IMG/VR virus record: IMGVR_UViG_3300034023_000908
Coordinates: 1 to 22,300 of that record
DNA from: a virus
DNA length: 22,300 bases
Reading direction: 5' to 3' (one strand)
The stretch's first letter is position 1. Each line of letters starts with the position of its first letter. Position numbers and translations under genes: made by a program. Of the stretch, positions 4,358-22,254 are shown piece after piece. The notes beneath the pieces are model-generated. The model was not told the origin of the DNA and did not search any database. It saw only the letters and a list, made by a program, of their open reading frames with translations.

Positions 4358-4430
4358 CTATACATACCAAAGGGTTCAGCTCTATTTTTAACAATTTTAC
4401 CCCGAAAATGCCTACAAACAGATTTCGATA

Positions 4431-4439: not shown

Positions 4440-4483
4440 AAGATTACAAGCAAAAGAAATAGTCAATAAAGACTGAGAGGAAA

Positions 4484-4951: not shown

Positions 4952-4986
4952 GGTGAGCGAGCGGATCTATTTATTGAGAAAGAAAA

Positions 4987-5274: not shown

Positions 5275-5321
5275 TCATCAAACTGTCGAACCCGTTCGTT
5301 AATTAATCGAGAGAAATAAAG

Positions 5322-6098
5322 ATGGCTATCAAAGGTTTGACCGATTTACGGAATGGGGGAGTGCTACCCACGATTGGGACGGTACGCAAGGGAGCAGCTA
5401 AGGCCGGTAACAAACCCGGCGCGGATCTAGATTCGTTCCGAGTTACCTCGAAATATGCTGAGGTACTAAAAGAGTTTGAGGCTGAATACAGCAAGATCGG
5501 CGGCTTGTTCCCCGTCGGGATCGGGATCATTTTGGTTCACGACTCGATCGAGGCTAATTTCCCTACCAGCATGGAAGCCTGGGACGCGAAGGGATTGTTA
5601 CGCCGTTGTGATGGCGAAACCCAGTTCCTGCATTTGGCAGGTAACAAGATGAGCCAAACGCGGCTACCGTGTCTCGGTTGCGACGGTGGTAAAGACAGTT
5701 GCAAACCCACGGGGCGGCTCCGTTTCGTCGTCCCACGAATCCGATCACGGGTCGGATCGTTCGAGCTTGAGACGCATTCTAAGTGGGACTTGATCAGCAT
5801 CTCGCAATGTCTACAGGTGATGCGTGAGATCTTAGGATCTCTGACCGGCGTTCCGATGGTGCTATCCCGTGAGCAGCGAGATATCACCGCACCGATGGGC
5901 GAAAATCGCGGGCGAGTTACCAAATCGTTGATCAATCTGCGTCCCCATATCTCAGTGGGTGAGTCCATAGCGCGGACGATCGAAGCCCGCATGATGACCC
6001 GGATCGCTGAAATCGCGGGGGCGTCCGACACGCTCATGCTGGAAGCTTCAGCGGAACCCGAATCCGCTCTACCAGGTGAGATCGTCACCGTCGGTTAA
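5322..6098 (+). CDS. Recombination directionality factor-like protein (Gp3-like)
   Basis: A 258-residue protein. The layout matches the phiC31/phiBT1 Gp3-like directionality-factor family: IGTVRKG near residue 18, DLDSFRVTS (35-43), EAWDAKGLLRRCDGET (85-100), a cysteine cluster C117-x2-C120-x6-C127, then CKPTGRLRFVVP and a vGSFELETHSKWD segment (about 145-157). C96, C117, C120 and C127 could bind zinc. In actinophages such proteins bind a large serine integrase and switch it to excision, but many distant homologues occur in phage recombination loci without proven function. No integrase is encoded in this window. Its place in a compact early-type operon on the strand opposite the structural genes fits a role in induction. 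Confidence 0.6.
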   Translation: MAIKGLTDLRNGGVLPTIGTVRKGAAKAGNKPGADLDSFRVTSKYAEVLKEFEAEYSKIGGLFPVGIGIILVHDSIEANFPTSMEAWDAKGLLRRCDGETQFLHLAGNKMSQTRLPCLGCDGGKDSCKPTGRLRFVVPRIRSRVGSFELETHSKWDLISISQCLQVMREILGSLTGVPMVLSREQRDITAPMGENRGRVTKSLINLRPHISVGESIARTIEARMMTRIAEIAGASDTLMLEASAEPESALPGEIVTVG

Positions 6099-6148
6099 CA
6101 ACTGAAGCGCTCAGAGTCTCGATCGTGGCTCTAGGCGCTTCTTCTTTT

Positions 6149-6154
6149 AGGAGG
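6149..6154 (+). promoter_or_regulatory. Perfect Shine-Dalgarno deciding the ASCH gene start
   Basis: AGGAGG six nucleotides before the ATG at 6161. It decides for this ATG over the upstream in-frame GTG at 6125, which has no ribosome site and would add 12 residues outside the conserved domain. Confidence 0.8.
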
Positions 6155-6160
6155 CACGAC

Positions 6161-6745
6161 ATGCGAGCTTTTACTGTCCACCGGCCTTGGGCTTGGGCGA
6201 TCGCTTACGCGGGGAAGGATGTCGAGAATCGAGATTGGGATCATCGCCTGCCACCAGGGACGCCGATCGTGATCCACGCCGGAAAAAAGTGGGATGCCGA
6301 CGGCGCAGCCTGGATAGCGGAGAAATTTAACACCGTAGTTCCACCCGAACCGGATCAACCGAGTGGAGTTATCGCGACCGCTACGATCGGGAAATGTCTA
6401 CCCTTGAGCCAAACCTTTTCACCGTGGGCGACGGGTGAACTTTGCTGGCCTCTAGCGGAGGTGCGAGCGCTGGCAAAGCCGATCCCGTTTCGTGGGCAGC
6501 AAAAGATTTTTAACATCCCTGATAGCGTCGTCACTCCTGACACCCTGCGCTCCTTAGTCATCCCCAAAATCGAACCCGGTGATCACGTCCAGTTCGATGA
6601 TGCTGGCTACGGCGGTGGTATTCGTACCGGGGTGGTGATCGGGAAAGGTAACCAATTTTTATCGATGTCGCAATACTGGATCGTCGATCCGGACGATGGT
6701 GGTAACCCGCGATTTCTATTGCCCATTCAGTTGACCCAAATTTAG
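6161..6745 (+). CDS. ASCH-domain (PUA-like) protein
   Basis: A 194-residue protein. It begins MRAFTVHRPWAWAIAYAGKDVENRDW, the classical ASCH opening (xxxxxPWAxxIxxGxKxxExR), followed by IVIHAGKKW and GVIATATIGKCLP. ASCH domains are PUA-like folds that bind RNA or modified nucleotides, and some cleave RNA or deaminate modified cytidine. The C-terminal 60 residues form a second strand-rich part (GDHVQFDDAGYGGGIRTGVVIG) that looks like a small beta-barrel. It is the last gene of the cassette, and its stop overlaps the convergent stop of gene V. A role in host takeover or anti-defence is possible but not shown. Confidence 0.72.
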   Translation: MRAFTVHRPWAWAIAYAGKDVENRDWDHRLPPGTPIVIHAGKKWDADGAAWIAEKFNTVVPPEPDQPSGVIATATIGKCLPLSQTFSPWATGELCWPLAEVRALAKPIPFRGQQKIFNIPDSVVTPDTLRSLVIPKIEPGDHVQFDDAGYGGGIRTGVVIGKGNQFLSMSQYWIVDPDDGGNPRFLLPIQLTQI

Positions 6746-7494
6746 AAGATCGTCGGATACGTCCCCGGCGTGTTCGCTTGATCGGTATACGGATGCAAAT
6801 GCGTCACGGTGCAAACGGGTTGATTGTTGAGCGTGAACTTGCCGACATTATCCCAATGCACCCAAGAATCACCCGCGCTAAACGTATATTTTTTAAGCAG
6901 TTCAACCCCGGTGTCATCACCGAGAATGAAACTCTGACCGATCGCGTTTTGAAAGACGATCGCACCGAGCTTGGTGAGGGTTAAACTAGCGCCCGACTTG
7001 GTTCGGATTTGGACGACTTCCGCCTCGATTTCGTATAGCAGATCCGCCGTATGTGTTTGATTGACGTTGGCATGAGTTACGCGATCGCCTGGTGTCGTTT
7101 CAAAGAATCGAGGCGCGTTTGCATCGTAATAATGCTCTGCCCCGTCATCATGCTTCCACCCTTGTAGATCTGGGTTTGAGTATGGTGCGGGGCGTTCGTC
7201 GTTGTAATACCCGCCAACCCAGATCCCCTTATTTGAATTTTGATTGAGGATCAAGACCCCGGCGTCGCCAATCTGGGGTAGACCATAATTGCGGTATCCC
7301 TTTTGACTTGCGAGGGGAACCGCGACCCGTACCCAAGGGCTTTCGATCGGGTTGCCCGTATCCGCATTCTTTCGACCGGGAATCGAACACCGCACCCACA
7401 TTTTTTCGGCGTCGAGTTTGGTGATCGTAGCTTGCTGATAGATTCGCGGGGTAGCGTCGTCAGTCTTACTCGCCATTTGCGTTGCGATCGGCAT
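6742..7494 (-). CDS. Baseplate assembly protein V (P2 gpV-like spike)
   Basis: A 250-residue protein with an N-terminal OB-fold-like part (ATITKLDAEKMWVRCSIPGRK, WVRVAVPLAS) followed by LPQIGDAGVLILNQNSNKGIWVGGYYN, which is diagnostic of gpV/VgrG-like spikes. The C-terminal part is beta-rich, ends with an HLHPYTD stretch and probably forms the trimeric needle. In the particle it sits under the hub protein D and pierces the host envelope. It follows D after a 4-nt gap. Its TAA stop overlaps the convergent TAG of the ASCH gene at 6742-6745, which marks the right edge of the inserted cassette. Confidence 0.85.
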   Translation of the reverse strand: MPIATQMASKTDDATPRIYQQATITKLDAEKMWVRCSIPGRKNADTGNPIESPWVRVAVPLASQKGYRNYGLPQIGDAGVLILNQNSNKGIWVGGYYNDERPAPYSNPDLQGWKHDDGAEHYYDANAPRFFETTPGDRVTHANVNQTHTADLLYEIEAEVVQIRTKSGASLTLTKLGAIVFQNAIGQSFILGDDTGVELLKKYTFSAGDSWVHWDNVGKFTLNNQPVCTVTHLHPYTDQANTPGTYPTIF

Positions 7495-7498
7495 TGTT

Positions 7499-8536
7499 CT
7501 AAATCTCGCGAGTGACGGTTAATTTACCGAGGTCGATAATTTTTCGACAGCTCAGACGGCTCTCGTAGCCTTGGGCGTTCAGCGAGTGGTCAACCTCTTT
7601 GATCTGGTAGATCCCATCGATCACCACACCGCACCCGGTCAGGTCAAAGTTAATCCCGGCTTGGTAAATCGATGATCCTAATAACGTCAATCGCAACGTA
7701 ATTTTATCGGCATTTTTTTCGCGTAAGGCCGACTCCGCGCGGGTGATCGCCTGCTCTCCTGAATCGATCCCCTGCTCGGTGATCTCAAACGTTTCACCAT
7801 CCGGCAACCCGCTCGCGGTGACCAGATAGGCGATCGATTCATCGGTATCCGGGTTCTCGCAAGTGACGCGGCAAGCGCCGTAAACATCGTCGAGTTTGTC
7901 GCTGTAATCCGGTACACCGATCCAATCCGTCGGGGCGATCGAGAACTGGGTCGGAGCTTCGTCGAGTTCCTTTTGCGTGAAGACCACCAAGCGCTGACCG
8001 TCTTCGATCTTGAATAGGTGATCGTGCTTCGCCGCCTCAGTGCTTAAAAATTCGATATCGGTTTGGTTTTCCTGGGTCAACCGCTCAAGCTTGATATCTT
8101 CGATCGTGCCGACCAACTCCAATTTGTAGCGATCGGCAAACTCCGCAAATAGATCCCGTAGCGTGATGTTTTCCCACGTCCGATCGTGCCGGGTTCGGAG
8201 TCCCTTCAATACCGGTGTGCCGGTAGCTCTCAGGTTGAACTCTGTTTGAAGGTCGGAGTCGATATCTGAAATCGTGCCCTCGCGCTCCTGCACCTCGATC
8301 GGCTGACCATCGACAGACCAGCCGAATACGACCGAAAACACCTCACCTTGAACCGGGTATAACGATTCACGCCAGACGCCGGTTGTATCAACGATCGACA
8401 AGCTCAACTCGTCTGATTTATCGTCGATCGAGTCTCGAAACGATAGCGAGATAAATTCGAGATTGGCGTCGGGTACGGCACTCGTCAGCTTTTGATCACC
8501 ATACTTAACCGTGAAATAGGGGCGGCGTTGGGGCAT
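7499..8536 (-). CDS. Baseplate hub / late control gene D protein (P2 gpD family)
   Basis: A 345-residue hub protein related to T4 gp27 and VgrG N-termini. The start is the ATG at 8536, which overlaps the TAA stop of X by one base (TAATG). A start at 8557 would add seven residues inside X. Recognisable parts are ISLSFRDSIDDKSDELSLSIVDTTG near the N-terminus, then LRDLFAEFADRYKLELVG and LTQENQTDIEFLSTEAAKHDHLF in the middle, both typical of phage GPD, and a C-terminal GIYQIKEVDHSLNAQGYESRLSC. It forms the trimeric or hexameric ring at the tail end. Confidence 0.88.
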   Translation of the reverse strand: MPQRRPYFTVKYGDQKLTSAVPDANLEFISLSFRDSIDDKSDELSLSIVDTTGVWRESLYPVQGEVFSVVFGWSVDGQPIEVQEREGTISDIDSDLQTEFNLRATGTPVLKGLRTRHDRTWENITLRDLFAEFADRYKLELVGTIEDIKLERLTQENQTDIEFLSTEAAKHDHLFKIEDGQRLVVFTQKELDEAPTQFSIAPTDWIGVPDYSDKLDDVYGACRVTCENPDTDESIAYLVTASGLPDGETFEITEQGIDSGEQAITRAESALREKNADKITLRLTLLGSSIYQAGINFDLTGCGVVIDGIYQIKEVDHSLNAQGYESRLSCRKIIDLGKLTVTREI

Positions 8537-8769
8537 TAGGTTTTCGCGGTTTTCCACGGCGGGGCGATCGTCGGGAAGCCGGTAGTCGTGAGGAGAGTGT
8601 GAGCGGGAATCAACAGCTCCACACCCGCCGGGAGTACCGGAGAAAAGCGATCGGCTCCGATCATCGGGTTTGCGCGGATCAAGGATTGAACACTGATATC
8701 GAAGCTCGCCGCGATCAAGTCGAGTCGATCAAGCTGCCCGGTTCGATAGGTGCGGAAAGCGATGCTCAT
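8536..8769 (-). CDS. Tail protein X (LysM-like)
   Basis: A 77-residue protein in the X/LysM family: RTYRTGQLDRLDLIAASFDISVQSLIRANP with a C-terminal LPAGVELLIPA. This is the usual YxxxxGDxLdxIA...NPxL...LpaGxxixlP pattern that binds hub protein and/or peptidoglycan. The start at 8769 is chosen because it gives an ATGA overlap with the upstream gene (8766-8769) and removes an N-terminal extension. The usual length is 65-90 residues. Confidence 0.85.
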   Translation of the reverse strand: MSIAFRTYRTGQLDRLDLIAASFDISVQSLIRANPMIGADRFSPVLPAGVELLIPAHTLLTTTGFPTIAPPWKTAKT

Positions 8770-9236
8770 ATCAGTTCCTCTAACCAAACCGCCGTCTGGC
8801 TGTTAATTTTGGCGACCAATGCCCACGGAGAGGAAAGGTTTCGAGGCTCGGTTACCCGCGTCGGGCTTTGTGGTGTCGTTGTCCCTTCAAAGATCAAAGC
8901 AACCTCGATCGCCGTCCGGCCTGGTGAACGGGCGATTTCTGATACTGAGCAAGAAACGAAATACTCCCCCGTCTGAATCCCGCCATACGTGATCGCGACC
9001 GGCTCACCCGCCAACTCAATCCCGAGCAATTCGCCAACCAACGTATCCGGGTGGCGATCGGGCAATACCGTCGTGTCGAATAACAACGAAGCGCCCCACG
9101 TAGCGGCGTCCTGACCCACAACAAACCGGCGGCTCTGCCCTTGAAACGGCTCGACCGTCGCGACCCGTGGCGACTGCTTAAACGACGTAACCGATATCAA
9201 TTCGCGTACATCGATCGCAAAATTTCCAATTTCCAT
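8766..9236 (-). CDS. Tail protein, gpU-like by position
   Basis: A 156-residue protein starting with MEIGNFAIDV. An in-frame ATG at 9308 would add a basic/aromatic leader extending into the promoter region and is rejected. A central segment RRFVVGQDAATWGASLLFD followed by ELLGIELAGEPVAITYGG resembles the gpU plan, in which ring-forming protein U completes the tail at tape-measure length. Order U-X-D supports this, but sequence similarity is weak, so another tail-tip protein is possible. It is the first gene of this operon. Sheath, tube and tape measure do not precede it here. Confidence 0.6.
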   Translation of the reverse strand: MEIGNFAIDVRELISVTSFKQSPRVATVEPFQGQSRRFVVGQDAATWGASLLFDTTVLPDRHPDTLVGELLGIELAGEPVAITYGGIQTGEYFVSCSVSEIARSPGRTAIEVALIFEGTTTPQSPTRVTEPRNLSSPWALVAKINSQTAVWLEELI

Positions 9237-9335
9237 AAAACGCCCACCACTTTCCTTTAGTTTACCCCAAAAAACTGGGTAAGTACGATAAAATATAGAG
9301 ACAAGCAATCGTTAAGTCTAAAAAAAAGGGGAGAA

Positions 9336-9350
9336 TAAACATCATGTTTA
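9336..9350. promoter_or_regulatory. Palindromic operator overlapping the start codon of the HTH gene
   Basis: TAAACATCATGTTTA is a perfect odd palindrome (7-bp arms around one C). The same sequence occurs upstream of the repressor gene at 17786, 17894 and 17999. Here the ATG of the HTH gene is inside the right arm (9344), so a bound repressor would block transcription and perhaps translation of that gene. The site is about 100 bp upstream of the divergent tail operon start. Confidence 0.8.
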
Positions 9351-10079: not shown

Positions 10080-10412
10080 TTAACCACCAATAAAATTGAC
10101 GAGAAAATTGAGGATAGCTGAGATCAGCTTAATCCCAGCGCCGACTCCAATCCCGAGAAAATAAAGTCCCCCAAACGCAACTGTCAACGCCATCAGTAAT
10201 ATTTTCAACTCAGCCCAGGCGGTTGGGACGAGCGTTACAAAGGACGACTTCGCGTCAAATTCATGCCCGTTCTGTCGAAATACGTGGCTCGCAATTTGGA
10301 CGGCGTGAAGTTCCGAAGTTGCCCAGACAATCTCAGCCGTTCGACCGATCGCCGGATGATTGTAGTCGATCTGATAGCGGCGTTTTCGTTCTGGTTTTTG
10401 CGCGGTTGTCAT
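10080..10412 (-). CDS. Small membrane-anchored hypothetical protein
   Basis: A 110-residue protein. The start MTTAQKPERKRRYQID is chosen because AGGAG lies 7 nt before it. An upstream in-frame ATG at 10547 would overlap the hydrolase gene by 125 nt. A basic, polar N-terminal ~65 residues (probably cytoplasmic, with ASELHAVQIASHVFRQNG-like helix) is followed by two hydrophobic segments (about 70-90 and 93-108) ending FLVNFIGG. It sits between the hydrolase gene (10-nt gap) and the 42-residue membrane protein. I do not recognise a family. Confidence 0.7.
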   Translation of the reverse strand: MTTAQKPERKRRYQIDYNHPAIGRTAEIVWATSELHAVQIASHVFRQNGHEFDAKSSFVTLVPTAWAELKILLMALTVAFGGLYFLGIGVGAGIKLISAILNFLVNFIGG

Positions 10413-10422
10413 GGCTAAACTC

Positions 10423-11706
10423 CTAGAGCATTTTTGAGCAAACTGAGGCGGTGTATTCGGCGATCGAGGGGTAGCTTTTCCCGTTGTAGGTTTGGGGTTT
10501 CGTATCGGCGTACAGCTCCGGTTTTCCTGAGTAGTGATAACTGGCAAGCATCCGGCATTGGCTTTCCGGTTCGTCTGAGAGTTTGGAAACCCGCGCCCAA
10601 CCGTCTAATAAATAGCGGTGCATGGCCTCCTCCTGAAGTTCCGGCGATGCGAGGAACTTGCGATCGGTCATGTCCGATCCGAGTAGCGCTCGCATCACAT
10701 CTGGCATGAACTGATATTTACCAAGCGCTCCAGAGTCCGGGTTAACTGCACCGTAGCTATTGCCCGATTCTTGCTTTGCAATCCAATCGCGGTACACATC
10801 TAAATTAAAAAGGGGCGGGATTTCGAGTCGTAGACCACCGGCAAAATTTGGGAAGTTGTCGATCGAGATGATCCGCACCGTCCCGGCTCTCGTTGGCCGA
10901 TCGATCACCTCGCCATCACCGAGATAAATCGCGACGTGCGTGATCGTACCAGGAGGCCATTCACCGTATGTGTTGGCAAAAAATACCAAGTCACCCGGTC
11001 TTAAATCGCGCTTTTTTTCGATCTTCGATCCTTGATCAGCACCGAAGCTATTGGCCGTTAACGGTGACGACGGCATGATTGAATCGAGCGGTTGCCGGGT
11101 GATATCGGGGGAGACAACGATCCCGGCATCCTTTAGCACTTGGCGAACAAACGCCGCGCATTGTTCAGCTTCACCGGGTTTAAAATCTTTGCCCACCCAG
11201 GTCATTGCCGTAGCAGCAACCTTGGAGCCGCTAACCGCTTTACCCTCGTTTTTTGAGGGAGCATCGTCGGACGATAACCCGATAAATTTGGCGGCGGGCG
11301 AATTGGCAACCCGGTAAAGGTTGTAGGACAGATAGGCGTAACTCGACTTTAAAACTGGGTAAGCGGTCACGATTCCCAAGGCCGCGATCGCCAGGAAAAT
11401 CTCGCTCCAAACCTCAGCCGGTGTTTTCCGATAGTTCGCGTCAAGCCCGTGGACGCGCTCAGTGATGACGCGATCGCCGTAGCGCTTAACCCCGGTTTTG
11501 ATTTGCCCCTTAAACCAACCCGCCGCCGTCGGCTTGGGTTTGGTCTTTTCTCTGGCTTTGGTCTTGGCCTTAGATTTGGCTTTGGATTTACCAGCGGGCG
11601 TCGTCTCCGCTTCCGGCTCCGCTACTGGCTCCGCCGCCGGTGTTTGTAGCAGGTTGAGGAGGGTTAGGAGAAATAGCGGGTTCTGATTCTTGGTTTGTTG
11701 GGTCAT
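10423..11706 (-). CDS. Bifunctional cell-wall hydrolase: NlpC/P60-type plus lysozyme-like domains
   Basis: A 427-residue protein. Order: a polar, low-complexity Ala/Glu/Pro then Lys-rich region (about 20-60), one membrane segment (about 103-120), an NlpC/P60-type peptidase (about 160-295) with Cys183 in EQCAAFV, His257 in ITHVAIYLGDG and the usual LRPGDLVFF motif, then a lysozyme/transglycosylase-like domain (about 303-400) with Glu313 in KQESGN and the family motif GKYQFMP (329-335). Both domains cut peptidoglycan: a peptide bond and a glycan strand respectively. The pairing recalls conjugation hydrolases of the Tn916 Orf14/CwlT type (there in opposite order) and virion lysins. The membrane anchor and linkage to the ATPase operon favour a transfer or envelope-channel role over host lysis. 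The start lies within the 3' part of the preceding gene. Confidence 0.8.
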   Translation of the reverse strand: MTQQTKNQNPLFLLTLLNLLQTPAAEPVAEPEAETTPAGKSKAKSKAKTKAREKTKPKPTAAGWFKGQIKTGVKRYGDRVITERVHGLDANYRKTPAEVWSEIFLAIAALGIVTAYPVLKSSYAYLSYNLYRVANSPAAKFIGLSSDDAPSKNEGKAVSGSKVAATAMTWVGKDFKPGEAEQCAAFVRQVLKDAGIVVSPDITRQPLDSIMPSSPLTANSFGADQGSKIEKKRDLRPGDLVFFANTYGEWPPGTITHVAIYLGDGEVIDRPTRAGTVRIISIDNFPNFAGGLRLEIPPLFNLDVYRDWIAKQESGNSYGAVNPDSGALGKYQFMPDVMRALLGSDMTDRKFLASPELQEEAMHRYLLDGWARVSKLSDEPESQCRMLASYHYSGKPELYADTKPQTYNGKSYPSIAEYTASVCSKML

Positions 11707-12063: not shown

Positions 12064-12078
12064 GATGAAAGTTCTACT

Positions 12079-12126
12079 GATTTACTGATTTACTGAAACG
12101 CTGACTCACTGATTTACTGACTCGAT
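12079..12126. repeat. 8-bp tandem repeat cluster 1
   Basis: Six contiguous octamers of the form GATTTACT (12079, 12087, 12111), with variants GAAACGCT, GACTCACT and GACTCGAT. It lies immediately upstream of the minus-strand gene at 12063. Confidence 0.85.
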
Positions 12127-12260
12127 TCAACTACCGCGATGTAATTGCATAGGACGATGAAACGTGGGTCGGTCGTTGAGCGATGGATGGAAAGGGCTTC
12201 GGCGATCCGACACTCGTGTTACCCAAGGGTGAGGAGGGCATCGATCGTGAGGTTAATTCG
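12124..12260 (-). pseudogene. Decayed copy B of the ATPase C-terminal module
   Basis: The minus-strand frame reads TIDALLTLG, stop, then RIAEALSIHRS and TDPRFIVLCNYIAVVES. This aligns with the intact ATPase C-terminus (AIDKMIAQGKSK..AIADALSIQR..ADPRYVVLTDYLSAVQA). A nonsense codon replaces the middle and there is no start. Position and order show duplication downstream of the intact gene followed by decay. Confidence 0.75.
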
Positions 12261-12292
12261 CAATGAATTGCTCGAAAAGTTGAGGCTTTGCA

Positions 12293-12332
12293 TATTTACT
12301 GAGTTGCTGAACTACTGAATCGCTGAACTGAT
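12293..12332. repeat. 8-bp tandem repeat cluster 2
   Basis: Five octamers: TATTTACT, GAGTTGCT, GAACTACT, GAATCGCT, GAACTGAT. It separates decayed copies A and B. Confidence 0.8.
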
Positions 12333-12360
12333 GAAGAAGTGATTCGGTAGTGAGGTGGGG

Positions 12361-12504
12361 TTGCGAAACGCGGATCGATCAAGCCTTAGCGATCTAGACT
12401 TTGGATTTACCTTGAGTGAGGAGGTCGTCAATCACGGCTTTGTTCCGCTCAAGCCGGGTGGCCGGATCGATTCGAGCGGGCGCGGGTCGGATGGTGTGTT
12501 TCAT
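12361..12504 (-). pseudogene. Decayed copy A of the ATPase C-terminal module (36-codon ORF)
   Basis: From the ATG at 12504 the frame reads DPATRLERNKAVIDDLLTQGKSKV, then TAG (12394-12396). It continues past stops as IAKA-stop-SIRV. This matches DPMVWLDQNKAAIDKMIAQGKSKTAIADALSIQR of the ATPase, including runs of identical DNA. The short ORF could still be translated, but internal stops in the conserved helix-turn-helix-like part indicate decay. Confidence 0.75.
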
Positions 12505-12511
12505 GGTTACT

Positions 12512-12559
12512 AATTTACTGAGATGCTGAACTACTGATTTACTGAACTACTGACATTTT
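12512..12559. repeat. 8-bp tandem repeat cluster 3
   Basis: Six octamers: AATTTACT, GAGATGCT, GAACTACT, GATTTACT, GAACTACT, GACATTTT. It lies directly between the ATPase stop codon and decayed copy A. The ATPase's last codons look derived from the same repeat. Confidence 0.85.
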
Positions 12560-12565
12560 CAATCA

Positions 12566-13804
12566 TTAATTAACTGAAACAGTGTGTTGCTTAACCGCTT
12601 GAACGGCTGAAAGGTAGTCGGTTAGGACGACGTAGCGCGGATCGGCCTTTTCGCCGGTCAGGATTCGTTGGATCGATAACGCGTCAGCGATCGCGGTTTT
12701 GGATTTACCTTGAGCGATCATCTTGTCGATCGCGGCCTTATTTTGGTCAAGCCAAACCATCGGATCGTCTGGAATCTCAAGCTTGAATTTGACGGGGGTG
12801 GATAAGTCGGGAGCTACGATGATCGCGGCCTCACCCGTGATGCAATCCCGATAGCCGACCGCCCGTGCAGGAATGTCGAGTTTTTTCACAATCTCCTGAC
12901 GCTGTTGCGAAATTGCTTTCCGGTTGATATCGGTCGGCAATTGCTCCGAAGCATCACCGTAGGTATTCGCACCAACGATAAATAAATCGCATTGCGCGAC
13001 AACACTAGAATCGAGTTCAGTTCTCGCTTTCTTGAGCGAGTGGGTGACGAGCTTGAGATTCTTTTTAAACTTTCGACCCTCATCAAAAATCACGTCGATC
13101 GCTCGAAGGCCGGATTCCCAACGAAGGGGATGATGCTTTTTCCAATAGCGAATAATCCCGTCCCACTCATCACAGAAACAGATCTCAGCTTCACGCACCG
13201 CTTCACCCTCCCGACCCGCCGCGATCGATGCCTCGGTGTCCAAAAGGTAGTCGAGTAGTTCCTCCATTGAAATTAGATACCGGCGGCGAACTTCTTCACG
13301 ATCAACACCGGGAAGCCAATCACAACCCAGCGGATTGCCATCATGGTCAACAGCATCAAAATGAGGGTCGCACAGCAAACTTCTCGTATTTTTCAGGGTT
13401 AGCGATTGCTGAAACTGATAAGCGGTGATGACTGATTTACCCAGGCCACGAGCGCCGACGATGATCGAACTTTGACCAGCTCGCTTCGGCGTCCAAAAAT
13501 TTGGCGTCGTTAGATCCTGCTTCGGCGTCATCCCCTTAAGAAAATCAGCGATCGGTAACGGTGCGGTTATGGATAGCGGGTCAACTAACACCTCCGTTCT
13601 CTCACCCAAGAGAAGCGCGGTGGCCGTACCGATCGCATCGTCGGTCAGATTCGACAACGATCGGCCTTTTAATTGACCGTACGAAAACCGGGCGGTGACG
13701 ACAGAGCTACTAGCCAACGTGATCGCAACGATATTGTTGGAGGTTGTGATCGCACCGGCGGCGGCGACGGCGGAAAGAAAAGCTGAAAGCATTCCGGCAG
13801 TCAT
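12566..13804 (-). CDS. Membrane-anchored HerA/FtsK-type ATPase with C-terminal HTH-like module
   Basis: A 412-residue protein with a hydrophobic N-terminal anchor (about 5-32), Walker A GARGLGKS (117-124), Walker B EICFCDEW with Asp212-Glu213, and a sensor-like LKLVTHSLKKA (about 250-260). The layout fits the HerA/FtsK superfamily, which includes conjugation coupling proteins and phage packaging or secretion ATPases. The C-terminal 60 residues (IDKMIAQGKSKTAIADALSIQR) look like a recombinase-type helix-turn-helix. It overlaps the upstream membrane protein gene by ATGA (13801-13804), so all three genes from 14831 are coupled. DNA transfer is likely but the exact substrate is not shown. A filamentous-phage Zot-type ATPase is the main alternative. 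Confidence 0.75.
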   Translation of the reverse strand: MTAGMLSAFLSAVAAAGAITTSNNIVAITLASSSVVTARFSYGQLKGRSLSNLTDDAIGTATALLLGERTEVLVDPLSITAPLPIADFLKGMTPKQDLTTPNFWTPKRAGQSSIIVGARGLGKSVITAYQFQQSLTLKNTRSLLCDPHFDAVDHDGNPLGCDWLPGVDREEVRRRYLISMEELLDYLLDTEASIAAGREGEAVREAEICFCDEWDGIIRYWKKHHPLRWESGLRAIDVIFDEGRKFKKNLKLVTHSLKKARTELDSSVVAQCDLFIVGANTYGDASEQLPTDINRKAISQQRQEIVKKLDIPARAVGYRDCITGEAAIIVAPDLSTPVKFKLEIPDDPMVWLDQNKAAIDKMIAQGKSKTAIADALSIQRILTGEKADPRYVVLTDYLSAVQAVKQHTVSVN

Positions 13805-14520
13805 GGGTTGGCCTCAATGGTGGACGGGATTGATTCGGAGCCGGGTAAGGTTGCCCGCTGTTCATTAACCCGCTCCTGCGCGAGTCTCATCGATTCAGAT
13901 TCCAACGCCGCCGCTCGCGTCATTTCAAACAGGAGAGCGACGTTAGCGTTGTGCAACGGCGCGAGTGATAGTGAGCAACCAACGGATTGCTTATCACCAG
14001 CTAAATATCTCAGCGCATCGATGATCGCCAGATTATCGATAACTAAAGCTTGAACACCGTTCGCATCCAGGTTTTGGCTTGAGCCATCAAACTGACCGAC
14101 GGCGGCAGTGACGTTTTTCGCTTGGTTCGTTTTGTATCGCAGTTGCTCCTCTAACCAGGTTTGGGCGGGTAGTTTCTGCTGAAGGTTTGCGGCACGAAGC
14201 CAAGCGCCCCGTCGAGCGCATAACAACGAATTGATCGCCGCGCTTGCTTGCTGTCTAGCCAGATCACTCGACGCGGTGACAGATTGCTTCACATCTCCGA
14301 TCGTCGGGCTGAATGATTGAGCTAGACCTTCCTCCGTGCCATCGCTAACGCCCTCGGCATAACCGTCTTCGGCGCCGTCTTCAAGCCCCTGCTGGTAAAC
14401 CGATGATGGGTCGAAGTTGGTCGGGGTTGGTGACGAGCCGGGGGCTAGGATCTGACGTGCTGCCCAGATCAAAACGAGAGCAAGCCCGCCGCCGATCATT
14501 TGGTTTCGAGTGATTTTCAT
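13801..14520 (-). CDS. Membrane-anchored protein with Gly/acidic tetrad repeat
   Basis: A 239-residue protein. Residues about 8-26 (MIGGGLALVLIWAARQIL) form an N-terminal membrane anchor. Residues about 44-66 form a tetrapeptide repeat G-x-[ED]-[DE] (GLED GAED GYAE GVSD GTEE). The rest is mostly helical, with two Cys (about 102 and 182) and a long C-terminal helix rich in Glu/Arg. It is coupled on both sides by ATGA overlaps, strongly suggesting a complex with the ATPase. No family recognised. Topology suggests a single-pass envelope component. Confidence 0.7.
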   Translation of the reverse strand: MKITRNQMIGGGLALVLIWAARQILAPGSSPTPTNFDPSSVYQQGLEDGAEDGYAEGVSDGTEEGLAQSFSPTIGDVKQSVTASSDLARQQASAAINSLLCARRGAWLRAANLQQKLPAQTWLEEQLRYKTNQAKNVTAAVGQFDGSSQNLDANGVQALVIDNLAIIDALRYLAGDKQSVGCSLSLAPLHNANVALLFEMTRAAALESESMRLAQERVNEQRATLPGSESIPSTIEANP

Positions 14521-14831
14521 GAATCTGAATCTTGATCTTTTAGAATCTGACGGGCTGTTTCGATCGCCGCCGCTTCCTTTGGCGTGAAGCCGGTCATGCC
14601 TGATATGGTTTCGAGGCGATCACTAACCCGGCTCAGGTAATGCGCTGAAATCTGACGTTCCCAACGCGCGATCGCCGCGATCGCGATCAACCCAAAGAAG
14701 AAAGCACCGTTGCTGGCCGCTGACATCAATTCCATCGTTTCAGCCGATCGGGATGCCCCAACGAAGGTAGCAGCGCCAAATCCGGCGGCAATCGCAGGCA
14801 CGAAGAGTCGGAGCAAAAACAGCATTTTCAT
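14517..14831 (-). CDS. Two-helix membrane protein with cytoplasmic tail
   Basis: A 104-residue protein with hydrophobic segments at about 4-24 and 42-60, followed by a charged helical tail (ISAHYLSRVSDRLETISGMTGFTPKEAAAIETARQIL). Ends in an ATGA overlap with the next gene. Small two-helix inner membrane proteins often precede the ATPase in transfer operons, but there is no recognisable family signature. Upstream ribosome site is weak. Confidence 0.7.
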   Translation of the reverse strand: MKMLFLLRLFVPAIAAGFGAATFVGASRSAETMELMSAASNGAFFFGLIAIAAIARWERQISAHYLSRVSDRLETISGMTGFTPKEAAAIETARQILKDQDSDS

Positions 14832-14874: not shown

Positions 14875-14994
14875 CTAACGCTGCATCAGGCTTGGTGCTA
14901 TTTCGCTTTGGATTTTCAATAAAACCGGGTGGAGTTTTGGCAGCATCGCGCTGAGGCAAAGGATCAACGCGATCGCAGCAACCGCTCCGGTCAG
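14875..14994 (-). CDS. Possible 39-residue membrane peptide or -1 frameshift extension
   Basis: Directly at the stop of the coiled-coil gene, the -1 frame encodes TGAVAAIALILCLSAMLP (a clear membrane helix), then KLHPVLLKIQSEIAPSLMQR and a TAG stop. There is no ATG/GTG/TTG at its beginning. Either translation restarts at CTG (CTGA overlap with the stop), or ribosomes slip -1 on the run of five G's just before the stop (minus strand of 14999-15003), or a base is missing in the assembly. In the latter two cases the coiled-coil protein gains a C-terminal anchor. Confidence 0.4.
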   Translation of the reverse strand: MTGAVAAIALILCLSAMLPKLHPVLLKIQSEIAPSLMQR

Positions 14995-15725
14995 GACTCC
15001 CCCAGCGCCGCCCGGATCTGCGCTCGTGCATCCCGTTCAGCTCGCACCATTCGCAGCTCATTCGCAGCGGCTTCAGCGCGACGGCGGGCGAGATCAGCCT
15101 CGTCAGATTGACTACGGAAATCGCGATCCGTCTCACGCTGTACTCGACTGAGAGCTGCCGCTTGCTTCAGAATCTCGTCGAGTTGATCGAGGTGGGTGAT
15201 CGCCTGCGATTCTTTCTGGCTCGATTTTTCCTGCATTGCTAAAACACCGCTCGCGATTAACGCCAATGCCGATGATGCGATCGGCTCAACGCTTGTGTTG
15301 TCGTCCAGTTCGTCAACGAAATCAACATCGATCACCTCAGATCCGCTCGCTGTAAGGGTTTCATTCTCGATCGGCTTCGCTGCCTCAGCAAGTAGGCGCT
15401 GAATTTCTTCGACCCATTCGTCAGGGATGAGCAACTGGTTTACAACAACGCGATCATCGTAGTCGAGCAGCAGTAACCATCCGAGTTCGGTGTAACGCTT
15501 ACGGACTCGGACTTTATCCGCACCGACCGCTAAATCTGCCCACGGCGTCCGGCGCGATCGAACGTTGTGCGCCTTGCAATCCGACTTCAGCGCTTCCGCA
15601 ACCTCTTCAGAGGTGTAACGCCCGATCGTAAAGTTCGCAGCCGAAATCTGGCTCGTTAAGACCGTCGGTTCGTGTGCCGTAACGGTACTGTCTGCTATCG
15701 CGACTTTTGGAGTTGCCTTTGCCAT
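14991..15725 (-). CDS. Coiled-coil protein, first gene of the envelope cluster
   Basis: A 244-residue protein. Residues about 28-115 form a compact domain (FTIGRYTSEEVAEALKSDCKAH.., DKVRVRKRYTELGWLLLLDYDDRVVVNQLLIPDEWVEEIQRLL) that may bind nucleic acid or protein. Residues about 165-243 are a long charged coiled coil with heptad-like Ala/Leu spacing, ending RAQIRAALGES. No signal peptide. It leads the operon running to 9950 and diverges from the RHH gene across the 11-bp repeat region. I do not recognise a family; a plasmid-type accessory protein is possible. Confidence 0.72.
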   Translation of the reverse strand: MAKATPKVAIADSTVTAHEPTVLTSQISAANFTIGRYTSEEVAEALKSDCKAHNVRSRRTPWADLAVGADKVRVRKRYTELGWLLLLDYDDRVVVNQLLIPDEWVEEIQRLLAEAAKPIENETLTASGSEVIDVDFVDELDDNTSVEPIASSALALIASGVLAMQEKSSQKESQAITHLDQLDEILKQAAALSRVQRETDRDFRSQSDEADLARRRAEAAANELRMVRAERDARAQIRAALGES

Positions 15726-15816
15726 GATCTTTGCTTGATAAGGTTTTTGGTTGCCTGTGGCGACGCTTTATGTCACCAACCTGTACTTTATTAGACTTTT
15801 TTAGGCTTTTTAAGTT

Positions 15817-15858
15817 CCTTTTTTAGTTCTAATATAGGAACTATAGGACTAAAAAAGG
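15817..15858. repeat. Inverted repeat in the divergent control region
   Basis: Ten-base arms CCTTTTTTAG (15817-15826) and CTAAAAAAGG (15849-15858) are perfect reverse complements. A nested AGTTC/GAACT pair (15825-15829, 15838-15842) lies inside. It overlaps the start of the 11-bp repeats and probably contains promoters for the divergent genes. Confidence 0.7.
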
Positions 15859-15947
15859 ACAATGTAAACCCCAAAAGGACAGATTAAGGACAAACAAGGT
15901 ACAAGGTAATCACAAGAAAGAGACAAAAAGGGGACAAAAAGGGGACA
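15840..15947. repeat. 11-bp direct repeat array (iteron or centromere-like)
   Basis: Units ending in GACA or a variant end at 15850, 15861, 15881, 15892, 15903, 15914, 15925, 15936 and 15947. From 15882 six units are exactly tandem: GATTAAGGACA, AACAAGGTACA, AGGTAATCACA, AGAAAGAGACA, AAAAGGGGACA twice. All steps are 11 bp except one of 20. Exact helical spacing puts all units on one DNA face. RHH proteins such as ParR of plasmid R1 bind 11-bp repeats of this kind. The adjacent RHH gene at 16031 is the obvious candidate binder. Confidence 0.75.
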
Positions 15948-15967
15948 AGGTTGTACCATTGCGGGCT

Positions 15968-16005
15968 CCTAGCGGTTTCCGATACCCTGGAAACACCAAG
16001 CTAGG
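15968..16005. repeat. Nested stem-loop upstream of the RHH gene
   Basis: Outer arms CCTAGC (15968-15973) and GCTAGG (16000-16005), inner arms GTTTCC (15975-15980) and GGAAAC (15989-15994) around an 8-base loop. It lies 26 bp before the RHH start and could be an operator or an mRNA leader hairpin. Confidence 0.6.
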
Positions 16006-16030
16006 TTAAGCAAAGGAACTTAGAAGAGCC

Positions 16031-16258
16031 ATGCAGCAGGTTAAATTGAGCATCCCGGACGCCGTTGTGGACGTTCTCCTCAAACGGGCAAAACAAGAAG
16101 GTCGAACCGTGTCTAATTTGGCGGCATATCTACTCGAACGAGAGACTGAAGGGTATGTCGAGTCGCGGGCGTCGTACCTCAGAAGCCTCGCGACCATTTC
16201 AGATGACGAGTTCATCAAGGTTGTTGCAGCGATTCGGAGCAGTTCGGAAAATGGCTGA
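16031..16258 (+). CDS. Ribbon-helix-helix DNA-binding protein (CopG/ParR-like)
   Basis: A 75-residue protein: MQQVKLSIPDAVVDVLLKRAKQEGRTVSNLAAYLLERE. It opens with a beta-strand, then helix A, the EGRTVSNLAAYLL turn-helix B characteristic of the RHH fold, and a helical C-terminus. RHH proteins of this size regulate plasmid copy number, toxin-antitoxin operons or segregation. Next to the 11-bp repeat array it is a good candidate to bind it. It overlaps the following membrane protein gene by 8 nt. That protein is not a recognisable toxin. Confidence 0.8.
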   Translation: MQQVKLSIPDAVVDVLLKRAKQEGRTVSNLAAYLLERETEGYVESRASYLRSLATISDDEFIKVVAAIRSSSENG

Positions 16259-16676
16259 TGGTGCGACACACGATCGGGTCGGAATTTTGATCGGTTTGGC
16301 GGCGGGTGCGATCACGGAGATCGTCTTCCCAGGAGCTACCGCGCCGATCATGATCGACGCGATCGGTGGCACGCTCTTTCTCTCGCCCGATCTCGACGTT
16401 CGCGATCGAAAGTGCAAAGCCTGGTGGCGGTGGAATCGCTATCTAAAACTCGGTTGGTATTGGAATATTTATGCGGCGTTGATCCCGCATCATCGCCACT
16501 GGCTTTCTCATAGCCCGATCGTTAGCACGTTGATCCGTGCGATTTTTTTGGGTTGGCCGCTCGTGCTCATCCCGACCAAAATTGTGTTCGGAATCTGGAT
16601 ACTTGTATTCATAGGTTTAGAGATAGCGACGCTGACGCACCTTTATCTCGATGGGCTGCTGTTTAAGGAGCGTTGA
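16251..16676 (+). CDS. DUF2227-like membrane-associated metal-binding protein
   Basis: A 141-residue protein beginning MADGATHDRVGILIGL (start overlaps the RHH stop by 8 nt; a longer frame back to 16065 would be entirely within the RHH gene). Motifs: THD (6-8), LSPDLD (44-49), and IPHHRHWLSHSP (79-89), the metal-binding pattern of the YdjM/DUF457/DUF2227 group of small integral membrane proteins. Hydrophobic segments at about 10-30, 33-46, 68-80 and 95-130. It is common in cyanobacteria, and the biochemical role of the group is poorly known. Presence with an RHH gene suggests an operon but no shared pathway is apparent. Confidence 0.75.
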   Translation: MADGATHDRVGILIGLAAGAITEIVFPGATAPIMIDAIGGTLFLSPDLDVRDRKCKAWWRWNRYLKLGWYWNIYAALIPHHRHWLSHSPIVSTLIRAIFLGWPLVLIPTKIVFGIWILVFIGLEIATLTHLYLDGLLFKER

Positions 16677-17785: not shown

Positions 17786-17802
17786 ATAAACATCATGTTT
17801 AT
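17786..17802. promoter_or_regulatory. Operator O1 upstream of the repressor gene
   Basis: ATAAACATCATGTTTAT, a perfect 17-bp palindrome 54 bp before the repressor start codon, next to a probable AT-rich promoter (minus-strand GTAATATAAA around 17752-17762). Confidence 0.8.
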
Positions 17803-17893: not shown

Positions 17894-17910
17894 ATAAACA
17901 TGATGTTTAT
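17894..17910. promoter_or_regulatory. Operator O2
   Basis: ATAAACATGATGTTTAT, perfect 17-bp palindrome with the complementary centre base, 108 bp from O1. Confidence 0.8.
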
Positions 17911-17998: not shown

Positions 17999-18013
17999 TA
18001 AACATCATGTTTA
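17999..18013. promoter_or_regulatory. Operator O3
   Basis: TAAACATCATGTTTA, perfect 15-bp core, about 105 bp from O2. The near-equal spacing (10 helical turns) of O1-O3 would favour looping or cooperative binding. Confidence 0.78.
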
Positions 18014-18796: not shown

Positions 18797-19000
18797 TCAT
18801 TGCGTGGGATGAGACCCACAAAACCCTTATGATGGGGTTGTTCAACTGGCTCAAGTTGTTACAAGCAAAAGAAAAGCCAGAGAGGTCGGTAAACATCAAG
18901 TCGGTAAATCAAGCCCGACAATCCGTTCCGTTTCGTTAGGTCTGAGCGATAAATCTCAACCGATAACTAAAATCCACCCAGGCAACCGCCTGATCGGCGG

Positions 19001-19061
19001 ACTCTACGAAGCACTACTTAGGTGAACTCTATGAAGCACTACTTAGGTGAACTCTATGAAG
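19001..19061 (+). repeat. 25-bp tandem repeat carrying ribosome site and start codon
   Basis: Two full copies (19001-19025, 19026-19050) and the first 11 bases of a third (19051-19061). Each copy begins ACTCTAYGAAG and ends TTAGGTGA. Copy 1 has ACG where copies 2 and 3 have ATG. The AGGTGA of copies 1 and 2 is the ribosome site for the ATGs in copies 2 and 3. Confidence 0.9.
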
Positions 19062-19069
19062 TATTCTAA
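19031..19069 (+). CDS. Leader peptide overlapping the initiator start
   Basis: The ATG in repeat copy 2 opens a 12-codon ORF, MKHYLGELYEVF, ending TAA at 19067-19069, in a different frame from the initiator and overlapping its first codons. It has the same ribosome site, spacing and start context as the initiator, so it should compete with or couple to initiator translation. It could simply be a by-product of repeat duplication. Confidence 0.5.
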   Translation: MKHYLGELYEVF

Positions 19070-20618
19070 CGCCCCCGTACACGCCGGTCAAGCTATGACC
19101 AGCCCAGAGAAAGAGCTGCTACTGAGCCAGATGGCTACAGTCCAGCCGATCGGTGACATCGTACCGCCTCACTGGGATCGCATTCTCGCGACGGAGGCAA
19201 CGGGTAGCGTCGTCGCGATGCGGGCGGCGCGGTTGCTAGCGCATCTCGTAAGTTGGTGGAAGCCGATTCGTGATGAGCATTCTCAATACTTGGGTCTAGA
19301 TTCGCGATTTACGGGTAACTTTTTTGGTTGTTCGCATAACTACCTAAAAGGCAAATTTGGTTGGACGACGAAACAAAGTCTTTTAGCGTGGCGATTGTTG
19401 GAGGACTTTAAGGGTGAAAAGCTTGCGGAGCGGGTGATTCAGCCCGTCTTGTACGCAACGACCGGGGTTTGTATTTCAAGCACCTTCGCTGTTGTTTATC
19501 CCGATAAGATCGAAGCTCTTTTAGGCTGGCGCGATTCCGCGAAACCGCAAAGTGCCAACATTCGTCACTACGATGCTTTAGTCGATAAGCAGGGTAACTT
19601 GCTAGAAGCTGACCCGGTAACGGGTTTGCCGATTGGTCTTAAGCCGAAGCCGGTGCAACTCGAAACGATCGAGGAGCCGATCGAGGCGTTGATCGAAGCG
19701 ATCGAAGAGCCGGTCAAAGCGATCGCAGAGCCGATCAAAGCGATCGCAGAGCCGGTCAAAGCGATCGAAGAACCGGTCAAAGTGATCGCAGAGCCGATCG
19801 AGGAGCCGATCGAGGCGTTGATCGAAGCGCCGGTCGATTCAGAACTGCCGTGGGAAACGATTGAGGAGCCGATTGAACTGAATGAGGAGTCGGTCAAGCC
19901 GGTCAAAGTGAACGAGGAACCGATCGTGCCGCCGGTCAAGCCGGTCAAGCCGCCGCCCGACATGATCGTAACGACGCCGACTACACGCTTACCGTCAGAA
20001 ACGCCGGTCAAAGTGAACACACCGCCGGTCAAGCCGATCGAGGAGCCGGTCGCCAAACGTAAACCGATACCCGCCCCGATACCCGCCCCGAAAAAACCTG
20101 CGTCCAGTGTCCGGGTCATGACTCGGGAGGAAATGGAAAGCGTGGGCGAGGATTTGATGAACGGTCGTTTTAACGATTACAAGGATCGCGGCCTGTATCC
20201 CATTTGGCGGCGATCGAACAAACTCAACGACTATGATCCGAAGGTTTGCGAGACGCTGAAGAAAAGCTATACCAAGCGCGGGATCGAGATTATTCCCCAG
20301 CAATGGCTATCGATCCGTGAGAAGGATGGAAATTGGGCAGGCATTCTAGCCGTCCTCGATAATCTTGGAGCGCTACACGTATCGCCACAGGCGACGGTGA
20401 TTGAGCGACCGCCTGAGCAAACCGAGAGCGAACGATTGATCGGGATCATTTCCCAACGGATCACGATCCTGACTGCATCGTGGGCAAGACCACAAAATAT
20501 CGAAAAGGCTCTTAGCGGCCTCGATATTTTGATCCAAGAAGCGAATGAACTTGGACTCGGGTTAGAAGAAGAGCTTGAGCGAATCCCGGCAGAGCAACGA
20601 GCTGAGTGGGGTCTATAA
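19056..20618 (+). CDS. Putative replication initiator or helicase-loader protein
   Basis: A 520-residue protein whose ATG lies in the third repeat copy with AGGTGA upstream. A GTG three codons earlier is possible. N-terminal part (about 10-160) is helical: VAMRAARLLAHLVSWW.., GWTTKQSLLAWRLLEDF, suggestive of a winged-helix DNA-binding domain. Residues about 205-345 are low-complexity EPVKAIA-like repeats giving a flexible linker. The C-terminal part (about 350-520) has MTREEMESVGEDL.. and a helical end. It ends 2 nt before dnaB. The arrangement of wHTH, linker, C-terminal domain followed by DnaB resembles phage O/DnaD-type initiators or loaders. No catalytic relaxase or Rep nuclease motif is visible. 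Function is inferred from context. Confidence 0.65.
   Translation: MKYSNAPVHAGQAMTSPEKELLLSQMATVQPIGDIVPPHWDRILATEATGSVVAMRAARLLAHLVSWWKPIRDEHSQYLGLDSRFTGNFFGCSHNYLKGKFGWTTKQSLLAWRLLEDFKGEKLAERVIQPVLYATTGVCISSTFAVVYPDKIEALLGWRDSAKPQSANIRHYDALVDKQGNLLEADPVTGLPIGLKPKPVQLETIEEPIEALIEAIEEPVKAIAEPIKAIAEPVKAIEEPVKVIAEPIEEPIEALIEAPVDSELPWETIEEPIELNEESVKPVKVNEEPIVPPVKPVKPPPDMIVTTPTTRLPSETPVKVNTPPVKPIEEPVAKRKPIPAPIPAPKKPASSVRVMTREEMESVGEDLMNGRFNDYKDRGLYPIWRRSNKLNDYDPKVCETLKKSYTKRGIEIIPQQWLSIREKDGNWAGILAVLDNLGALHVSPQATVIERPPEQTESERLIGIISQRITILTASWARPQNIEKALSGLDILIQEANELGLGLEEELERIPAEQRAEWGL
19671..20055 (+). repeat. Low-complexity repeats inside the initiator gene
   Basis: Imperfect 21-bp (7-codon) units coding E-[EP]-P-[IV]-K-A-I and then PVKPVKP-type units. 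The DNA is dominated by GAGCCG(A/G)TCAAAGCGATCGCA-like units, so HIP1 octamers are embedded in the repeat. Such runs can expand or contract by slippage without breaking the frame. Confidence 0.85.
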
Positions 20619-20620
20619 AA

Positions 20621-21973
20621 ATGCTCGATCTACAATTTGACTCTCCCCTACAACTCCCGCCGCAAAACATTGAGGCAGAGGAGTCGATACTTGGCGGGAT
20701 CTTGCTCGACCCGAATGCCTACGGTCGGATCTCTGATGTCCTCTGTGCCGCCCACTTTTATATCGAGGCTCACCAGCTCATCTTCGACGCGATGAACTTT
20801 CTTAAGAGCCAATGCCAACCAACGGATTTGATTTCGGTTGCAGCGCGGTTATCCGACACCGATACGTTATCGAAGATCGGCGGGCAAGCCAAACTCGTCC
20901 AGCTCGTAGACCGTACCGTTTCGGCGGTGAATATCGATCGCTACGCAGCCTTGGTGATCGATAAGTGGTGCCGACGTAATTTAATCGGCAAGCTTCAGGA
21001 TTCCGAGATGTTGGCTTACGACACGGCGAAACCGTTTCCTGAGATCGCCGCTGCCGTCCAAACGAAGATCCTGGACGCGACTTGCCAATCACCGGAAGCG
21101 TCCGGTGACTGGATGGTCGATGTTGTGATCGATGTCATGGATCTCGTGTCAGCGCGGGCGATCGCGGCTGAAGAAGCTGAACGGCGTGGCGAAAACTATA
21201 CTGTCGGCACTGCGACCGGCTTGGTTGATTTCGATAATCTAACCGAGGGGATGGTACGAGGCGATTTGATGATCATCGCCGGTCGTCCGTCGATGGGCAA
21301 AACAACGCTCGCACAGCAATTTGTTAATGTCGGCAGTTCATCGACCGCTGCTACTGCGATCTTCAGCCTTGAAATGTCGCGCCTTCAATTAGGGATGCGG
21401 GCGATGTCAGCGCAAGCTGGGATCGACTCGACCAAGCTTCGACGCGGGGATCTTAGCAATGATCAATGGTCTGACCTCGGTAACACGGTAGAAACTCTGG
21501 GCGGCCAGAATATTTACATCGACGATCGTTCTTCAATTACGGTTGGCGAAATCGGTCTGACCTGCCGACGCCTCAAAGCCGAACGCGGGCTATCGGTTGT
21601 GATGATTGACTACGCTCAACTTTTGATTAACCACAACGAACGGGCTAATTCAGAATTGAGCCAGATTAGCCGGAGCTTGAAACTTTTAGCCCGCGAGCTG
21701 GATATCTGCGTCATTCTCGTTTCTCAGCTAAACCGGGGCGTCGAATCTCGTCAAGATAAACGCCCGCTAATGTCCGACCTCAAAGAGTCCGGTGCGTTGG
21801 AGCAAGATGCTGATGTAGTCGTGATGCTCTACCGCGACGAATATTACAACCCGGATACGCCCGATCGCGGTGTCACCGAGCTATGGGTACGGAAGAATCG
21901 CAACGGTTCAACTGGCATGGTCAAACTTCTGTTTGCTTCCCAGCAAAATAAATTTGTGAGCTTACAACGTTGA
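20621..21973 (+). CDS. dnaB: Replicative DNA helicase DnaB
   Basis: A 450-residue replicative helicase. N-terminal domain begins LPPQNIEAEESILGGILLDPNAYGRISDVL, as in cyanobacterial DnaB. RecA-like domain has Walker A GRPSMGKT (221-228), SLEMS motif (about 249-253), Walker B VVMIDYAQLL with Asp330, and the C-terminal VSQLNRGVESR..RPLMSDLKESGALEQDADVV..RDEYY region. No intein is present, although inteins are common in cyanobacterial DnaB. Start is the ATG at 20621 with GTGGGG upstream, 2 nt after the initiator stop. It unwinds DNA at the element's fork; a private helicase implies partly autonomous replication. Confidence 0.97.
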   Translation: MLDLQFDSPLQLPPQNIEAEESILGGILLDPNAYGRISDVLCAAHFYIEAHQLIFDAMNFLKSQCQPTDLISVAARLSDTDTLSKIGGQAKLVQLVDRTVSAVNIDRYAALVIDKWCRRNLIGKLQDSEMLAYDTAKPFPEIAAAVQTKILDATCQSPEASGDWMVDVVIDVMDLVSARAIAAEEAERRGENYTVGTATGLVDFDNLTEGMVRGDLMIIAGRPSMGKTTLAQQFVNVGSSSTAATAIFSLEMSRLQLGMRAMSAQAGIDSTKLRRGDLSNDQWSDLGNTVETLGGQNIYIDDRSSITVGEIGLTCRRLKAERGLSVVMIDYAQLLINHNERANSELSQISRSLKLLARELDICVILVSQLNRGVESRQDKRPLMSDLKESGALEQDADVVVMLYRDEYYNPDTPDRGVTELWVRKNRNGSTGMVKLLFASQQNKFVSLQR

Positions 21974-22254
21974 AACGATTACTAGACGATCCTCGATTTT
22001 CCCGGCTTCAGGCCATGTTTAAAATCGAAAATTCGACGGGGCTATCGATCGAGGAAATGAACGTCGAGCAAGACAAACTTGTCGAGCGCACGATCGAGGC
22101 GATGAAACTCCGATCCATTGATCGCCCCAAGGTTAGCAACCCGCTCGCTGTCCGGGTTCAGGAATGCGAACAAACTTTTGCCTGGTATCGTTTGCCAAGC
22201 TACTCCAAAAAAAAAAGGGTTGAACAACATCCCCGTCAACCTCGAAATTCTTGA
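21970..22254 (+). CDS. Hypothetical replication-module protein, probably frameshifted
   Basis: A 94-residue frame beginning TTG in a TTGA overlap with the dnaB stop, or at ATG 22015. N-terminal sequence KRLLDDPRFSRLQAMF and IENSTGLSIEEMN is ordinary soluble protein. After a run of ten A's (22207-22216) the sequence turns basic and low quality (VEQHPRQPRNS), whereas the +1 frame continues well (INIPVNLE-like residues to the window end). The real gene may therefore be longer, via slippage or a sequence error. Function unknown. A replisome role is suggested only by coupling to dnaB. Confidence 0.6.
   Translation: MKRLLDDPRFSRLQAMFKIENSTGLSIEEMNVEQDKLVERTIEAMKLRSIDRPKVSNPLAVRVQECEQTFAWYRLPSYSKKKRVEQHPRQPRNS

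Follow-up and report, generated by a model that had tools for sequence, protein, structure and literature searches.

What does an array of 11-bp repeats do beside the gene of a small ribbon-helix-helix (RHH) protein in a viral genome fragment? A sequence-only reading of this locus had suggested a centromere or copy-control site, perhaps of a motor-less or new segregation system, or an array of replication iterons. The question was followed up in the whole IMG/VR record IMGVR_UViG_3300034023_000908, 22,300 bases, referred to below as the window.

The fragment and its host

The leftward genes at positions 69-9308 include those for a GpI-like tail protein, baseplate J, gp25, and baseplate V proteins. 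Because these tail and baseplate genes occur together with a DnaB helicase gene (Table 1), the contig was assigned to a contractile-tailed phage. Judged from sequence relationships, the host is very probably a cyanobacterium, since the relatives of the RHH protein and of an FtsK-like ATPase encoded nearby belong to cyanobacteria or cyanophages.

Several other features of the window concern the life cycle of this phage. A protein resembling the Gp3-like recombination directionality factors is encoded at 5322-6098 (Pfam E 2e-28), which suggests an integrating phage with its recombinase outside the 22.3-kb fragment. Four exact TAAACATSATGTTTA palindromes were found at 9336-9350, 17787-17801, 17895-17909, and 17999-18013, with 0.27 expected even when 3 mismatches are allowed; three of them are located upstream of the gene for a 224-aa helix-turn-helix (HTH) regulator and the fourth where the tail gene cluster begins, and they are probable lysogeny or late-gene operators. 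About five 21-bp repeats (19696-19796) are present within a 523-aa gene upstream of the DnaB gene and form a candidate replication origin of the lambda-O-like kind, and a 25-bp direct repeat with 2.4 copies (18999-19061) spans the start of the same 523-aa gene. An Rfam scan and a tRNA scan gave no matches.

Table 1. Coordinates of the features discussed in the text
Feature	Position	Strand	Basis or remark
412-aa FtsK/HerA-like P-loop ATPase	12566..13804	-	N-terminal hydrophobic segment
239-aa protein	13801..14520	-	membrane segment at N terminus
104-aa small membrane protein	14517..14831	-	
244-aa protein, first gene of leftward operon, possible array binder	14991..15725	-	without database family
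Divergent intergenic control region, 305 bp, flanked by the leftward 244-aa gene and the rightward RHH gene	15726..16030		ORF boundaries
Left T-rich half	15789..15843		weaker 11-bp phasing (z 3.1, P 0.004); imperfect inverted repeat with 15844-15876
Predicted sigma-70-like promoter of leftward operon	15840..15868	-	TTTACA (15868-15863), 17-bp spacer, TATAGT (15845-15840)
Two extra units, TAGGACTAAAA (15844) and AAGGACAATGT (15855)	15844..15865	+	in spacer and -35/-10 region of leftward promoter
Array right half, seven tandem 11-bp units	15875..15951	+	period-11 column information, shuffles
GACA-like cores of the seven right-half units	15878, 15889, 15900, 15911, 15922, 15933, 15944	+	
75-aa RHH protein, RHH_5, candidate array binder	16031..16258	+	Pfam E 8.2e-9
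DUF2227 putative metal-binding membrane protein	16251..16676	+	E 1.5e-13; hydrophobic segments
DnaB gene and putative initiator gene together	19047-21973		
DnaB helicase	20606-21973		Pfam profile

The 11-bp repeat array

The 11-bp repeat array is genuine and looks functional. The seven units of its right half, 15875 AAGGACAGATT, 15886 AAGGACAAACA, 15897 AGGTACAAGGT, 15908 AATCACAAGAA, 15919 AGAGACAAAAA, 15930 GGGGACAAAAA, and 15941 GGGGACAAGGT, follow each other at a spacing of exactly 11 bp, with one invariant C and a conserved GGACA. A run of seven GACA boxes (at most 1 mismatch) at 11-bp steps appeared in 0 of 3,000 dinucleotide shuffles of the intergenic region, and, with all periods from 6 to 20 allowed, seven such boxes in a row appeared in 0 of 1,000; the array is also the sole run of at least five GACA-like boxes at 11-bp steps in the contig. 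The lag-11 autocorrelation reached z = 5.3 for 15841-15955 and z = 6.6 for 15785-15955. The column information at period 11 was z = 8.0 in the right half and z = 3.1 (P = 0.004) in the left half, and that at periods 7-10 and 12-15 was not significant. The helical phasing noticed in the sequence-only reading is consequently real and its tandem register holds, although the six tandem units counted there were one too few, and the interval 15789-16258 given for the array is correct only in its intergenic part, 16031-16258 being RHH coding sequence. When two tandem units were used for an exact search, three viral contigs matched, and the flanks look coding in two of these.

Two extra units farther left carry AGGACT and AGGACA (15845-15861), and their cores at 15847 and 15858 are 11 bp apart, yet 2 bp off the register of the right half. 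The T-rich units described on the left side are present but are spaced pairwise by 10 and 12 bp, and the inverted repeat thought to comprise 10 bp is larger, with 33-nt arms at 15799-15831 and 15844-15876 that are 76% complementary. A perfect 9-nt inverted repeat, CTTTTTTAG/CTAAAAAAG, was also found. Single-strand folding of the intergenic region was unexceptional (z -1.35).

A predicted promoter inside the array

The predicted promoter of the leftward operon agrees with the sigma-70 consensus at 10 of 12 positions and was the one such match in the region, with 0.3 expected in shuffles; this is a consensus match only. Array units sit in the spacer and upstream of this promoter and also cover its likely transcription start, and the -35 hexamer coincides with a missing unit and the 2-bp slip of the register. 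With its position at 15868-15840 within the array, the promoter, again as a consensus match only, overlaps the repeated sites in the manner of an RHH-regulated divergent operator. The consensus scan of the intergenic region found no promoter for the RHH gene.

The genes on both sides

The neighbor of the array had been taken for an RHH protein, which the profile comparison bears out: the RHH_5 match scored 35.5 bits at a curated cut-off of 26. A comparison with Arc gave nothing beyond PHROG matches at E 0.07-0.1. Cyanobacteria commonly carry relatives of this protein, most of them of a picocyanobacterial class without this gene neighborhood. The RHH and DUF2227 genes probably share an operon because the start of the latter overlaps the stop of the former.

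The leftward operon begins with the gene for a 244-aa protein whose N-terminal stretch appears HTH-like (by eye only) and for which a long C-terminal helix is predicted at low confidence (pLDDT 43); no HTH family matched in profile searches. The structure models of this protein (pLDDT 43) and of the ATPase (pLDDT 34) were too poor for use. Nostoc/Anabaena phages encode a relative of the 412-aa ATPase under the name "DNA translocase FtsK" (E 8e-9), and in hhalign the ATPase of the window matched the A-1(L) FtsK family at 97%. Plasmid searches with the 244-aa protein and with the ATPase gave no matches, and 386 cyanobacterial genomes contained no convincing match to the 244-aa, 239-aa, or ATPase proteins, the weak matches there being confined to short segments, for the most part within longer frames.

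Three blocks of 8-bp tandem CTGA octamers (12070-12577) adjoin the 3' end of the FtsK-like gene. These runs of 6, 4, and 5 octamers at 12077, 12299, and 12518, with about 205-220 bp from block to block, are the only ones of at least 3 in the contig, and the short frames after two of the blocks vaguely resemble the C terminus of the ATPase (NKAVIDDLLTQGKSK versus NKAAIDKMIAQGKSK). The sequence of these blocks suggests a decayed local duplication or, alternatively, a recognition site of the ATPase.

Relatives of the module

The 244-aa, 239-aa, and ATPase proteins had close relatives on only one viral contig, IMGVR_UViG_3300042350_005912 (L025). It is a phage contig, to judge by a terminase-like gene and further phage genes read from its translated frames. 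Its gene order matches that of the window, an RHH gene followed divergently by genes for 227-aa, 126-aa, and 225-aa proteins that are homologues of the 244-aa, small transmembrane, and 239-aa proteins with 27-34% identity, and it is the only relative found with the full divergent arrangement. The matching spacer has a lag-11 z of 2.9, the highest of that locus, and contains the boxes GGAGTCC, GGAGTCC, and GGACTCC at 11-bp steps (z 5.8 for a stretch picked after inspection). These boxes differ in sequence from those of the window, and no promoter was predicted in the L025 spacer. About 3 kb away from its RHH module, L025 also carries a ParA gene (L025:5347-5985), which has a neighboring 115-aa gene of its own; because this ParA gene is a separate locus, the RHH/array module is not its obvious partition partner. 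Upstream of related RHH genes, the strongest of 40 lags was lag 11, with a combined z of 4.9 without the window, a value that, by our own estimate, shrinks to roughly 3 when the noncoding baseline and the relatedness of the sequences are allowed for.

Similar layouts were seen on cyanobacterial plasmids. On NZ_CP151105.1, an RHH gene diverges from an operon that ends in a gene for a P-loop ATPase with a hydrophobic stretch at its N terminus, and one gene of this operon is related (E 2.6e-6) to gene 50 of phage A-1(L), which precedes the FtsK-like gene of that phage. A Calothrix plasmid (L003) resembles NZ_CP151105.1 in layout. A cassette common to cyanobacterial plasmids and phages may exist (L002 10053-16082 and L114 8756-13029). 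A common HTH protein as the link between the phage and plasmid cassettes was considered and rejected, as the profile comparison with the 244-aa protein failed. No paper describing the RHH/array/244-aa module was found in the open-access literature.

Function of the array

The array is, with a probability somewhat above even, a multi-site operator located between the divergent genes, where RHH dimers bind cooperatively and repress the divergent promoter or promoters. The RHH protein encoded by the rightward gene would be the binder, and its dimers would line up along a single DNA face, filling boxes spaced by about a helical turn, in the way of Arc, CopG, and ParR-type RHH proteins. The resulting nucleoprotein strip would cover the -35 and -10 motifs of the leftward promoter and probably also a promoter of the RHH gene itself, where none was seen by consensus, and would repress, or tune in dependence on its concentration, the operon that encodes the 244-aa protein, both small membrane proteins, and the FtsK-like membrane ATPase. 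Support comes from the array and its periodicity (0 of 3,000 shuffles), its uniqueness in the contig, the RHH fold by profile (RHH_5), the promoter match that the array encloses and whose spacer carries units, and the divergent gene order in one other phage, L025, which also has 11-bp-phased boxes in its spacer and its ParA gene elsewhere. On the other side, seven to nine boxes exceed the need of a simple repressor, the promoter of the RHH gene was not found, the leftward promoter is a consensus match only, and L025, with different boxes and no predicted promoter, is a single relative with the full arrangement; the 244-aa protein could also be the binder instead of the RHH protein.

If the array functioned in segregation, the RHH-bound repeats would be a parC/parS-like site, possibly with an operator role in addition, and the motor would be a ParA or ParM protein encoded outside the fragment or the membrane FtsK-like ATPase. 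RHH partition adaptors usually repress their own operon too, the contig is only a 22.3-kb fragment, and the ParA gene of L025 means that the phage lineage may include plasmid-like members. The spacing fits that of known RHH arrays, as had been claimed, since ParR of plasmid R1 binds 11-bp repeats in parC and requires at least two of them (PMC9426499). Profile searches nevertheless found no actin-like ParM among 20 window proteins, in agreement with the sequence-only reading, and the proposed search of the flanks for an actin-like or ParA partner yielded no CbiA, AAA_31, ParA, or TubZ match among the window proteins scanned; several smaller ORFs, e.g., 4484-4951, 6125-6745, 10080-10547, and 21970-22254, were outside the Pfam scan. 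The Gp3-like factor suggests an integrating prophage, which would need no centromere. Because the array is located on and around the predicted promoter of the divergent operon, no ParA, ParM, or TubZ was found in the scanned proteins, the ParA gene of L025 is separate, and no genes for plasmid maintenance were seen in the regions read of the Nostoc/Anabaena phages with a related FtsK-like ATPase, neither a centromere nor a copy-control role is supported, and a motor-less or FtsK-driven centromere is unlikely. A variant in which the RHH-coated array would be where the membrane FtsK-like ATPase is loaded onto DNA or anchored, with this translocase moving or tethering the genome at the membrane instead of ParA, ParM, or TubZ, has a very low probability; should the array prove to be more than an operator, a translocase-based holding or moving of phage genomes at the membrane would come into view.

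The array may instead be the operator of the 244-aa protein, with its possible N-terminal HTH and modeled long C-terminal helix, while the RHH protein acts elsewhere. The promoter inside the array would drive the gene of this protein, and the 244-aa gene is conserved along with the RHH gene, but no HTH family matched, the model is of low confidence (pLDDT 43), and no profile links the protein to the HTH-like proteins of the plasmid cassettes, so that this assignment is rather improbable. Intrinsically curved promoter DNA, with phased A-tracts and UP elements and no dedicated array-binding protein, would agree with the AA/TT periodicity at 10.5 bp and the bend predicted by a wedge model, both at or near the contig maximum, and phased A-tracts may account for part of the 11-bp pattern on the left. 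They leave the conserved GGAC unexplained: A-tract bending needs neither an invariant C nor a GGACA that is conserved in seven units spaced by 11.0 bp, and curvature by itself is quite improbable. Iteron origins typically have short phased direct repeats, and the 11-bp array itself is confirmed; nevertheless, iterons are highly improbable here because the DnaB and putative initiator genes are 3-5 kb away, no Rep gene adjoins the array, and the 21-bp in-gene repeats are the better candidate for a lambda-O-like origin.

Comparison with known systems

The locus presents a compact candidate RHH-DNA array in a poorly studied lineage of cyanophages and ties it to an uncharacterized operon for a membrane ATPase that has counterparts in other cyanophages. 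The FtsK-like cassettes of the Nostoc/Anabaena phages A-1(L), N1, Elbi, and YongM likewise contain a homologous ATPase gene preceded by several small genes, whereas no RHH gene of the window type was found directly adjacent to it, and no 11-bp array was found at this site in A-1(L). As in ParR-parC of plasmid R1, a type II (ParMRC) partition system, a predicted RHH gene adjoins 11-bp repeats in head-to-tail order with a promoter, here a predicted one, among them (R1 repeat length, PMC9426499). In contrast to R1, the window, a fragment of a tailed phage, gave no ParM-like match among the 20 proteins searched, and the divergent operon has a membrane FtsK-like ATPase instead; a Walker-type ParA as in the type I ParA-RHH systems does not adjoin the array among the window proteins scanned either.

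Arc and CopG are small RHH proteins with sites about one helical turn apart and control divergent promoters or their own promoter. By analogy, the window resembles the Arc/Mnt- and CopG-type operators in its small RHH protein, in the spacing of the sites by about one turn, and in the predicted control of a promoter, although it contains nine or more sites compared to two to four half-sites. The feature most likely belongs to this familiar kind, being an RHH-type operator array of a phage control region.
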